Assembly: GCA_015233395.1 (NCBI GenBank)
Contig: JADFXV010000018.1
Location: 1-44,259, forward strand
Direction: 5' to 3'
Source: Desulfovibrionaceae bacterium
GTDB lineage: Bacteria; Desulfobacterota; Desulfovibrionia; Desulfovibrionales; Desulfovibrionaceae
DNA length: 44,259 nucleotides
Shown: piece after piece, positions 1,854 to 41,233 of the stretch
How the letters are laid out: each line of letters opens with the position of its first letter
How positions within the stretch are numbered: position 1 is the stretch's first letter
Notes under the pieces: model-generated
Told to the model about the DNA's origin: nothing
Databases searched by the model: none
Seen by the model: only the letters and a program-made list of their open reading frames with translations
Program-made: the position numbers and the translations under genes

Positions 1854-1900
1854 CGCAACCGTGTTTACCGCGCCAAGAGATGACAGTTCTTCATGCACAA

Positions 1901-1970
1901 AGTTTTTTGGAGGCGGGGTCCAGGGGAGGAACCTTTTGTTCAACAAAAGGTTCCTCCCCTGGTCTCCTCT
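1901..1970 (+). repeat. Long-palindrome repeat (TTTTGTTCAACAAAA type), copy 1
   Basis: Begins AGTTTTTTGGAGGCGGGGTC. It contains a perfect palindrome at 1920-1962 with two 21-base arms around a single central C; the core is AACCTTTTGTT-C-AACAAAAGGTT. Related copies lie at 9377-9416 (opposite strand), 31910-31963 and, inside a gene, 24621-24716. Transcribed RNA would form a very stable hairpin, and the position after a gene also fits a role as terminator. Confidence 0.75.
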
Positions 1971-4737: not shown

Positions 4738-4767
4738 GGCCGAATAAAAGTGCGGAGGTTCTTTGTC

Positions 4768-4836
4768 GAGGGGGTCCGGGGGGAATGATTCCCCCCGGTG
4801 GGGTTCCAAGGGGCGAAGCCCCTTGGCCGCCGGAGG
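4768..4836. repeat. GC-rich hairpin repeat, two-hairpin copy after pyrC
   Basis: Hairpin with arms CCGGGGGGAAT/ATTCCCCCCGG, then CCAAGGGGCGAAGCCCCTTGG, then the edge CCGCCGGAGG, which ends four bases from the pyrC stop codon. Same module order as at 20450-20525. Confidence 0.75.
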
Positions 4837-7252: not shown

Positions 7253-7335
7253 TGCGCCCAGTACGGCGCGGCCCGGCCGGCGGCTTTGGGCCCGTGGCGC
7301 GGGCTCCGCTCAAACCTTCGCGGAAAAGGGCATCC

Positions 7336-8130
7336 ATGCTTCATATCGAAGACCTGCACGTCAGCATCGGCGAAAAGGAAGTGCTCTCGGGCATCGACCT
7401 GCACATCGGCGAGAACGAGACCTTCATCCTGTTCGGCCCCAACGGCTCGGGCAAGACCACCCTGCTGATGACCCTGATGGGGCTTGGCGGCCTGCGCGTC
7501 ACCCGGGGGCGCGTCCTGTTTCGCGGGACCGACATCACCCGGGCGCCCATCCACGAGCGCTCGCGCCTGGGCATCGGCATGAGCTTCCAGCGCCCGCCGA
7601 CCATCCACGGCCTGACCACCCGGCGCATGGTCGATCTGTGCGCCCAGGGGCGCGAGACGAACGTCGACGCCCTGGCAGGCATGGTCAACATGAGCGATTT
7701 TCTGGACCGCGACGTCAACTCGGGCTTTTCCGGCGGCGAGATCAAGCGCAGCGAGCTGCTCCAACTCATGGCCCAGCGGCCCAGGCTCGTGCTCTTCGAC
7801 GAGCCCGAATCCGGAGTGGACCTGGAAAACATGAAGCTCATCGGCCGCACCGTGCGCGAAATGCTCGACGGCACGCTCAGCGTCGAACCGGCCTCGTCCA
7901 TGAAGGAGCGCAAGACCAAGCGCCAGACCTCCGGGCTGATCATCACCCACACCGGCTACATCCTGGAATACATCAACGCCGACCGGGGCCAGGTGCTCTA
8001 CAACGGACACCTGTGCTGCGAGGCCAACCCCCGCGAAATCCTCGATCACGTCGGCAAGTTCGGCTACCAGGAGTGCGTGCGCTGCCTTGGCAGCGGGGAC
8101 CCGGGAGAGTTGTCGCGGATCATCGCCTGA
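7336..8130 (+). CDS. sufC: SUF-system ATPase SufC
   Basis: 264 residues. ABC-type ATPase without membrane domains: Walker A GPNGSGKT (34-41), signature GFSGGEIKR, Walker B LVLFDEPESGVDLE. The GEIKR form of the signature and the DEPESGVD Walker B are diagnostic for SufC rather than a transport ATPase. The frame is open further upstream, but homology begins at MLHIEDLHVSIGEKEVL, hence ATG 7336. By family it binds SufB/SufD-type scaffolds and drives conformational change for Fe-S cluster assembly. It is followed 77 bases later by one sufB-like gene; no sufS, sufU, sufE or sufT gene is seen nearby, so this is a two-gene system. Confidence 0.92.
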   Translation: MLHIEDLHVSIGEKEVLSGIDLHIGENETFILFGPNGSGKTTLLMTLMGLGGLRVTRGRVLFRGTDITRAPIHERSRLGIGMSFQRPPTIHGLTTRRMVDLCAQGRETNVDALAGMVNMSDFLDRDVNSGFSGGEIKRSELLQLMAQRPRLVLFDEPESGVDLENMKLIGRTVREMLDGTLSVEPASSMKERKTKRQTSGLIITHTGYILEYINADRGQVLYNGHLCCEANPREILDHVGKFGYQECVRCLGSGDPGELSRIIA

Positions 8131-9365: not shown

Positions 9366-9376
9366 AGGAGAGGAAT

Positions 9377-9416
9377 CGGGGGAAACCCCTTTTGTGAACA
9401 AAAGGGGTTTCCCCCG
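9377..9416 (-). repeat. Long-palindrome repeat, copy 2
   Basis: Perfect palindrome after sufB: arms CGGGGGAAACCCCTTTTGT and ACAAAAGGGGTTTCCCCCG around GA. The flanks GAGAGGAATC on the left and the A-rich AAAAAACTTTT on the right match the copy at 24621-24716. It probably acts as the sufB terminator hairpin. Confidence 0.75.
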
Positions 9417-9442
9417 AACCCCCTGCCTCAAAAAACTTTTCA

Positions 9443-9485: not shown

Positions 9486-9496
9486 AAAACCGTTTC

Positions 9497-9536
9497 GAGG
9501 GGGTCCGGGGGGAATCATCCCCCCGGCCGCCGGAGG
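9497..9536. repeat. GC-rich hairpin repeat, single-hairpin copy
   Basis: Starts GAGGGGGTCCGGGGGGAATC, giving a hairpin with a CCCCCCGG right arm, and ends with the edge CCGCCGGAGG. The CCAAGGGG-type hairpin is missing. Unlike most copies, its CCGCCGGAGG edge faces the start of a gene (9563). Confidence 0.7.
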
Positions 9537-19119: not shown

Positions 19120-19272
19120 CCAGGGGCGCTGCCCCTGGACCCCGCCGGGGGCGATGATCGCCCCCGGACCCCCACGTCAGGGGGTGCGGGCGTTTCCCCC
19201 TACGAGGGGGTCCGGGGGGCATCATGCCCCCCGGCGGGGATCCAAGGGGCGGAGCCCCTTGGCCCCCGGAGG
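19120..19272. repeat. Five-hairpin mirror-symmetric repeat block, copy 1
   Basis: In order: CCAGGGGCGCTGCCCCTGG; arms CCGGGGGCGA/TCGCCCCCGG; a central pair ACCCCCACGTCAGGGG with CCCCTACGAGGGGGT (decayed compared with 41057-41198); arms CCGGGGGGCAT/ATGCCCCCCGG; CCAAGGGGCGGAGCCCCTTGG; edge CCCGGAGG. The whole block is itself roughly an inverted repeat. It lies between the convergent qmoD and pdxA and includes the pdxA stop codon. Confidence 0.8.
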
Positions 19273-20449: not shown

Positions 20450-20525
20450 CGTCATGGGGGTCCGGGGGCGATTATCGCCCCCGGTGGGGATTCCAAAGGG
20501 GCAAAGCCCCTTTGGCCGCCGGAGG
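20450..20525. repeat. GC-rich hairpin repeat, two-hairpin copy after glgB
   Basis: TCATGGGGGTCC, hairpin CCGGGGGCGA/TCGCCCCCGG, hairpin CCAAAGGGGCAAAGCCCCTTTGG, then edge CCGCCGGAGG, ending 17 bases from the glgB stop. It lies in the 262-base divergent-downstream gap between pdxA and glgB. The rest of that gap (20281-20449) shows no gene. Confidence 0.75.
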
Positions 20526-24459: not shown

Positions 24460-25614
24460 ATGAGAATGGCTGACAAGGTGCTTTTCGTCCACCACGGCGC
24501 GCTCGGCGACTTCCTGCTCGCCTGGCCGGCCCTGTGGGCCGTGGCCAGGTGGGTGAGAGGCGGGATGGAGCTGGCTGGAGAGGATGGAGAGGAGAGGGAT
24601 GAGAGGGAGATGGAGAAGAGGAGAGGAATCGGGGGGAAAACCCCTTTTGTGAACAAAGGGACCACTGTCCCACGGGGTTTTCCCCCCGAACCCCCCTTTC
24701 CCCAAAAAACTTTTATGGGGGGGGAGGGGGCAGGCGATAGAATGGACGGGGATAGGGGGGGCGGAGATAGAAAGGACGATGGGCGGCCGGGTGCGCCCGG
24801 GCGGCAGAAAGCCTGCCTGTGGTTCGTGGGGGAAAAACAGCGCTCGGCGTGGACCGAACCGCTCGGGGCGCGCTTTCGGGAGCCGGATGCGGCCCGCGCG
24901 ATCGACGGGTTGTTCGGCGCGCGCGCCTGGCCGGAAAGCCTGGAAAAAACGCTCGTGATCTGGCCGGGGCTTGAGAAAAGACCGCCCGTGCCGGAACACG
25001 AAAACCTCTGGTTCCTGCCGGGCTGCGTCCCGGGCGAGCGGGTCTCGCCCAGGCGCAGATACTTGGATGAACTGGCGAAGCGGGGGGTTCCGGTCCACGG
25101 CGATTACGCCGGGGCCTTCAGGGAACTCTTCGCCGCTCGCCGGGAGCCGGACAAAACGGTCCTGCTTTTTCCCGGGACCGGCCATCCGCGCAAGGCCTGG
25201 CCCCTGGTCAAATATCTTGAACTGGCCGTGCGCCTGGCTGCAAGGGGGTTTCGGCCGATATGCGTCCTTGGGCCGGTGGAAACGCAGCAGGGTCTGCGCG
25301 CTCCCGCGGACTGCGCGCGGCCGCAAAGCCTAGCCGAACTCACGGCCCTGCTTTTGCGCGCGGCCGCCGTCGTCGGCGGCGACACCGGGCCTTTGCATCT
25401 GGCCGCGATGCTGGGCGCGCCAACGTTATCCCTCTTCGGACCGACCGATCCGGCCGTCTGGGCCCCACTCGGGGCGCGGGTATTGGCCGCCAAAGACGCT
25501 TGCGCCCCCTGCGCCGCCCTGGCCCCGGCCATCGGCTGCGCTCACGGCCGCTGCCTGGCGGAACTCACGGTCGACGCGGTTTGGACGGCCTTGGCCGCAA
25601 TGCTTGGCGATTGA
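24460..25614 (+). CDS. GT9 (heptosyltransferase-like) glycosyltransferase with repeat insertion
   Basis: 384 residues. The N-terminus [20 protein letters not shown] is the GT9 signature. The C-terminal domain has [40 protein letters not shown] and [13 protein letters not shown], and ends with the usual Cys pattern CAPC...C....C. Members transfer heptose or related sugars during lipopolysaccharide or surface-glycan synthesis. The family fold is interrupted between the first helix and second strand (about residues 32-115) by Glu/Arg-, Gly- and Pro-rich low-complexity sequence. Its middle (about 24621-24716) is a copy of the long-palindrome repeat. The frame stays open across it, so the protein may be made with the insert or the gene may be decaying. 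Confidence 0.85.
24621..24716 (-). repeat. Long-palindrome repeat inside the GT9 gene
   Basis: Flank GAGAGGAATC, arms CGGGGGGAAAACCCC (24630-24644) and GGGGTTTTCCCCCCG (24674-24688), then AACCCCCC and CCAAAAAACTTTT. The copy at 9366-9440 has the same order of parts. Here the loop CCTTTTGTGAACAAAGG is extended by a small hairpin, GGGACCACTGTCCC. A purine-rich GGAGAG stretch precedes it (about 24565-24620). Confidence 0.75.
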
Positions 25615-31898: not shown

Positions 31899-31909
31899 TG
31901 AAGTTTTTG

Positions 31910-31963
31910 AAGAGAGAACCAGGGGGCAACTTTTTTCAAAAAGTCGCCCCCTGGTTCTCTCTT
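31910..31963 (+). repeat. Long-palindrome repeat, copy 3
   Basis: Arms of 26 bases with one mismatch: AAGAGAGAACCAGGGGGC-A-ACTTTTT and AAAAAGT-C-GCCCCCTGG plus TTCTCTCTT, around TC. It is preceded by GAAGTTTTTGA, similar to the AGTTTTTTGG start of copy 1. Its right edge touches the stop codon of the minus-strand gene at 31962. Confidence 0.75.
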
Positions 31964-41056: not shown

Positions 41057-41198
41057 CCAGGGGGCTTTGCCCCCTGGACCCCCACCGGGGGCGATGATCG
41101 CCCCCGGACCCCCGCGTCAGGGGACACGGCCGCGCCCCTGACGCGGGGGTCCGGGGGGCATCATGCCCCCCGGCGGGGTCCAGGGGCGGAGCCCCTGG
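41057..41198. repeat. Five-hairpin mirror-symmetric repeat block, copy 2
   Basis: The best-preserved copy: CCAGGGGGCTTTGCCCCCTGG-type hairpin, arms CCGGGGGCGA/TCGCCCCCGG, central arms ACCCCCGCGTCAGGGG/CCCCTGACGCGGGGGT, arms CCGGGGGGCAT/ATGCCCCCCGG, then CCAGGGGCGGAGCCCCTGG. The order H1-H2-H3-H2-H1 makes the entire block a large inverted repeat. It sits between the co-directed tsf and pyrH. Confidence 0.85.
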
Positions 41199-41233
41199 TC
41201 GGGGTTCGGGGCGCGGCCCCGTGGGTTTTAGGC

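Follow-up and report, generated by a model that had tools for sequence, protein, structure and literature searches.

Results

A Glycosyltransferase Gene with an In-Frame Insert

In a member of the Desulfovibrionaceae, the open reading frame of a GT9 glycosyltransferase gene contains sequence resembling a palindromic repeat that also lies between genes. Is this a protein-coding element comparable to those of Rickettsia, or an intergenic repeat that one gene has captured, and what is the repeat itself? The gene lies in the window, by which we mean the whole 44,259-nucleotide stretch of DNA that was analyzed; its features are collected in Table 1. A preliminary description had proposed that the gene is split by extra sequence through which the frame stays open. 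Both claims hold: the frame reads over the whole gene without a stop or frameshift, the product matches Pfam GT9 with an E value of 3e-20, and once aligned with eight homologues drawn from relatives at the family and order level, it showed about 83 extra residues (33–115) where all eight have between zero and three. The insert also differs in composition. Its codon score was -0.27, as against 0.43 for the part of the gene before it and 0.15 for the part after it, and its GC3 was 0.63, as against 0.91 and 0.79, a deviation that is expected if the insert is former non-coding DNA.

Table 1. Features of the GT9 gene and of the repeat copies in the window
Feature	Coordinates	Strand	Basis or comment
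GT9 (heptosyltransferase-like) glycosyltransferase gene, 384 aa, containing the insert	24460..25614	+	Open ORF, Pfam, homologue alignment
In-frame insert, 249 nt = 83 codons, not in homologues	24556..24804	+	Alignment, codon score
Degenerate array of purines before the element, about 7 units of GGATGGAGA	24563..24627	+	
5′ arm of GT9 copy, GGGGGGAAAA CCCC TTTTGT	24631..24650	+	
3′ arm of GT9 copy, interrupted by nested palindrome	24653..24687	+	
Nested 14-nt palindrome GGGACCACTGTCCC in 3′ arm of GT9 copy	24658..24671	+	
Tail of GT9 copy, CCCCCCTTTCCCC AAAAAACTTT	24691..24713	+	Mirror of 5′ arm
3′ low-complexity part of insert, purine-rich	24714..24804	+	Predicted RNA fold: first G-run pairs with tail
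Intergenic copy of the repeat, immediately after a stop codon	9369..9439	+	
Third copy, divergent; stem GGGGAGGAACC, tail CCCCGCCTCC	1899..1969	-	

The alignment, together with a profile match, places the insert in the turn that links helix 1 to strand 2 in the N-terminal domain. A profile built from the alignment matches WaaC (2gt1) through this turn, and it also matches 3tov, the N-terminal piece of which aligns weakly. The GT9 protein may tolerate the insert as a loop at this position, and the captured copy is probably a surface loop of a protein whose glycosyltransferase activity is itself predicted. A search of genome contigs with the GT9 protein returned no confirmed relative.

We considered that the gene might be a decaying pseudogene, its function destroyed by the insert and its frame open by chance. 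About two in three copies of the repeat are open in any given forward frame, and the GC3 of the C-terminal part of the gene is lower than that of aprA (0.90), as decay would have it. Against this stand the intact frame, the retention in the window protein of the columns that are invariant among the homologues, and the location of the insert in a turn, and we consider a pseudogene rather unlikely.

The Insert Contains a Copy of a Dispersed Repeat

The insert was also said to share a repeat with the intergenic sequence at 9366–9440. This was borne out: the pieces GAGAGGAATC, the arms, TTTTGTGAACAAA and CCAAAAAACTTTT follow in the same order at both places, and positions 24621–24713 are a copy of the repeat whose counterpart is the intergenic copy at 9369–9439. 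The core CCCCTTTTGTGAACAAA has three matches in the window as against 0.06 expected, a number reached in none of 100 shuffles. A purine tract at the place of the GT9 copy's array is common in other copies too. The 14-mer GGGACCACTGTCCC, which is missing from the 9369 copy, has five exact occurrences in the genome, one in the GT9 copy and four elsewhere (contigs C44, C103, C109 and C139); several copies of the repeat have it nested within their 3′ arm.

Elsewhere in the window, the repeat profile has a further weak match at 31902–31957 (E value 0.0004), and other palindromic repeat families are found at 4767–4836, 19203–19272, 20453–20522, 41142–41211, 1775–1825 and 41073–41123. A search of the window against Rfam at the curated gathering thresholds gave no match. 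Judged by eye, the translation of an ABC-ATPase (SufC-like) reading frame at 7330–8130 also seems to have additional sequence, TLSVEPASSMKERKTKRQTSG, ahead of LIITHTGYILEYI.

First-look searches of the draft genome (3.37 Mb in 158 contigs) gave about 150–200 candidate copies of the repeat, and motifs of the tail type described below number 151, as against 7 for a reversed control. In two consensus searches of the family, covering 149 genomes from 44 genera, matches were obtained in 30 genera and in 33; the carriers include Solidesulfovibrio aerotolerans DSM 16695 and a Solidesulfovibrio MAG. Plasmid and phage collections yielded no match, and we found no earlier description of the repeat in Desulfovibrio or its relatives in the open-access literature.

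The Tail Mirrors the Stem

The most telling feature of the repeat, one not among the observations of the preliminary description, is a relationship between its stem and its tail. An element consists of a hairpin, G_k A_n C_m T_p, and then a tail, C_k T_(n-1) C_m A_q, such that the tail can be written down from the 5′ arm, read from the outside inwards, by replacing G with C and A with T, skipping the last A and leaving C as C. Examples are GGGAGAGGAACC, with the tail CCCTCTCCTCC; GGGGGAGGGAGGAAGCCCC, with CCCCCTCCCTCCTTCCCC; and GGGGGAAGGAGAAAACCC, with CCCCCATCCTCTTTCC. The length of the A-run in the tail equals that of the inner stem in 53 of 72 copies from the genome itself and in 41 of 56 copies from relatives. 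The GT9 copy, which falls outside the automatic parse because of its nested palindrome and was judged by eye, follows the same rule: G becomes C, A becomes T, C is unchanged, and the A-run matches the inner stem.

The rule was tested on the parseable copies, the family-wide matches resting on sequence similarity. Fit was expressed as the mean edit distance, with one element for each distinct stem, and compared with the distance after tails had been permuted among stems 20,000 times. For all 76 distinct stems the distance was 2.42, as against 5.25 ± 0.18 when permuted; the values were 2.73 and 4.64 ± 0.19 for the genome itself and 1.95 and 5.09 ± 0.25 for relatives. None of the 20,000 permutations gave a distance as low in any of the three sets, counts that are not of independent events since the copies are related by descent. 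Foreign tails of matched length fitted worse in 67 of 74 cases. Parsing demanded a pyrimidine-rich tail and so favored the right type of tail, though not the right order. A reversed rule, the one expected if the tail formed Watson–Crick pairs with the 5′ arm, gave 4.80, at or near the permuted level, and such pairing was rejected. Because the tail is a parallel complement of the arm, it cannot pair with that arm in register in the Watson–Crick manner; and because no polymerase could make a parallel complement from a template, copying errors would not account for it.

Departures from the rule depend on the type of base pair. Opposite G pairs the tail has C in 821 cases, T in 27, and A and G in one each, whereas opposite interior A pairs it has T in 78, A in 30, C in 8 and G in 3; for A against C, the Fisher p was about 6e-47. 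Positions that break the rule include CCTC in place of CCCC and, facing the GT/AC pairs within the inner stem, a T.

Could the element be a plain REP or terminator-like hairpin, with a pyrimidine-rich accessory tail that has no structural role and resembles the stem through inheritance within subfamilies? The GT9 copy does have a strong RNA hairpin (z = -3.05), copies are placed after stop codons, and copies form subfamilies, all as this explanation would have it. But the tails track 40 distinct stems in each of the two sets, relatives and the genome itself, in mirror order and in their block lengths too, and descent alone supplies no rule for new variants to obey; we therefore judge this explanation unlikely. 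A G-quadruplex of the G-rich strand, for which the G-runs would be kept, could draw on the three or four runs of four to six G's on that strand. A quadruplex has no need of mirror placement, however, and stems with interrupted runs (GGGAGAGGAA and GGGGGAAGGAGAAAA) retain it for their A positions and C block, which makes this reading very improbable.

A Candidate Alternate-Strand Triplex

The arrangement is instead what might be expected of DNA that folds into a triplex. Three tracts on one strand satisfy the triplet rules of purine-motif triplexes (G.G-C and A/T.A-T), as set out by Holder et al. (PMC4666352), who also report the in vitro formation of a G/C-rich intrastrand purine triplex from Escherichia coli (Holder et al. 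2015). In the structure that we propose, the third strand would be 5′-T_q G_m A_(n-1) G_k, on the strand complementary to the tail, lying in the major groove of the hairpin; for the GT9 copy, the complement of the tail on the other strand is the candidate. Along the outer purine tract the third strand would run antiparallel, with the triplets G.G-C and A.A-T. At the junction of purines and pyrimidines it would switch strands, with one nucleotide skipped, and beyond the junction it would run parallel, this time along the other arm's purines, with the triplets G.G-C and T.A-T. The geometry of the switch would be that of alternate-strand triplexes in general. The substitution pattern agrees with a triplex: T or A in the tail at interior A pairs gives A or T in the third strand, both of which make accepted purine-motif triplets, and opposite G pairs the tail is nearly always C. 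We thus view the repeat as a putative intrastrand-triplex former with a strand-switching extension. That the insert in the GT9 gene is an in-frame capture of a family-wide intergenic repeat forming such a putative alternate-strand triplex is the reading we favor, with somewhat better than even confidence. The capture may be fairly recent, because the GT9 copy still obeys the tail rule.

An Intergenic Family with One Captured Copy

We read 91 copies with their flanks, about half of the number estimated for the genome, picked by similarity or motif. By codon statistics just one of them, the GT9 copy, is flanked on either side by coding signal in a single frame; the others are intergenic. Of the 80 parsed hairpins, 37 have a coding stop no more than 130 nt away on the purine side, before the hairpin starts (median, 20 nt). 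In each of two forward frames 55 of 80 copies are open, mostly because stops are missing from the G/C arms, and most reverse frames are open too; the element has no special coding frame, and a chance in-frame insertion is therefore not improbable. Given that one copy in 91 is intragenic and that chance open frames are common, we judge the repeat to be an intergenic family, captured in a gene once among the copies read. A protein-coding palindromic element that spreads through genes, like the RPEs of Rickettsia, would be in keeping with the one clear in-frame capture and with the openness of most frames, but is the most improbable reading of all in view of that single intragenic copy and of nine long ORFs over other copies that have no Pfam match and an antisense type of codon use.

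The copies vary in architecture. A two-hairpin module (GCGTCGGCCAGCGC...GCAAGGCGAGAG...) takes the place of the 3′ arm in five copies (L085, about 1870–1990; L092; L110; L112; and L059, about 900–1060), all of which retain the tail; the copy at L067 has a different module, placed in the loop. Elements also occur in pairs, tail to tail and a few nucleotides apart (L061, 2975–3118; L065, 3019–3162; L071, 2999–3148; L077, 2967–3126). Of 69 copies, 17 have a second repeat, GGGGGTCCGGGGG, no more than 300 nt away on their tail side, and none of 70 has it on the purine side; an example in the window is at 9496–9529.

Discussion

In E. coli, the potential intrastrand triplex (PIT) elements and TM-ECO (Hoyne et al.; Holder et al. 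2015, PMC4666352) are what the element most resembles. They too are short, G/C-rich and intergenic, and in them a reverse-Hoogsteen tract adjoins purine and pyrimidine tracts on one strand (their class I order, or class III when the other strand is read). The present element differs in that the third strand would run on past the strand switch and in that stem and tail co-vary across genera. It also exceeds the loop limits of the surveys (1–6 nt in ITxF [Holder et al., PMC4666352] and 0–10 nt in Hoyne et al.), its inner hairpin usually putting about 20 nt between the purine and pyrimidine stems, so that the search of Holder et al. would have missed most such elements. Neither Desulfovibrio nor covariation comes up in the main text of Holder et al. 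(2015, PMC4666352).

REP and BIME sequences (the GTAG and CGTC families; PMC3733652) are also small palindromes, mostly downstream of coding regions and in some cases within ORFs; here the stem is longer and a mirror tail is present. A constant GTAG or CGTC tag was not found in the copies, the ends of which are GAGAGG-AATC and AAAAACTTT. The genome has two Y1_Tnp matches, one a 135-aa TnpA of the IS200/IS605 type, after which comes an ORF bearing a TnpB-like zinc motif, and the other shorter. A RAYT as the mobilizer is not supported: neither match is a clear RAYT, and a motif search found no element near either of them.

In-gene palindromes are best known from the RPEs of Rickettsia (PMC2229807, PMC3767692). 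As with the RPEs and the WPEs of Wolbachia, a conserved gene carries a palindrome in frame, which probably forms a surface loop; unlike them, the present repeat shows no tendency toward genes, with one of 91 copies intragenic. Of the proposed likeness to Rickettsia, then, in-frame capture stands, given homologues without the insert, a multicopy repeat and an open frame, and a coding family does not. The suggestion that such a capture is unreported in sulfate reducers narrows in the same way: since REPs of other families have been reported within ORFs in several bacteria outside Rickettsia (PMC3733652), the lineage alone is new. Finally, ERIC, NEMIS, YPAL and similar MITEs are intergenic hairpin repeats with occasional in-frame gene fusions (PMC2229807), and they are not known to have a mirror tail. 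For the present repeat, neither a target-site duplication nor a terminal TA has been established.

The GT9 capture is one more case of how such repeats enter a protein, and the larger finding is the repeat itself, with a tail that tracks its stem. Whether bacteria make use of DNA triplexes is an old open question, candidate motifs being plentiful and selection on the third strand hard to show. An alternate-strand intrastrand triplex might act at the ends of genes, for example as a block to polymerase or as a boundary. We see an even balance for and against the wider proposal that this repeat of the Desulfovibrionaceae forms, family-wide and under selection, such a triplex, its stem and third strand having evolved together, in many genera, across dozens of variants. 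The many natural stem variants, each with its matching candidate third strand, are a ready-made test set, and if the proposal is true, they would be comparative evidence that alternate-strand intrastrand triplexes matter in living bacteria.
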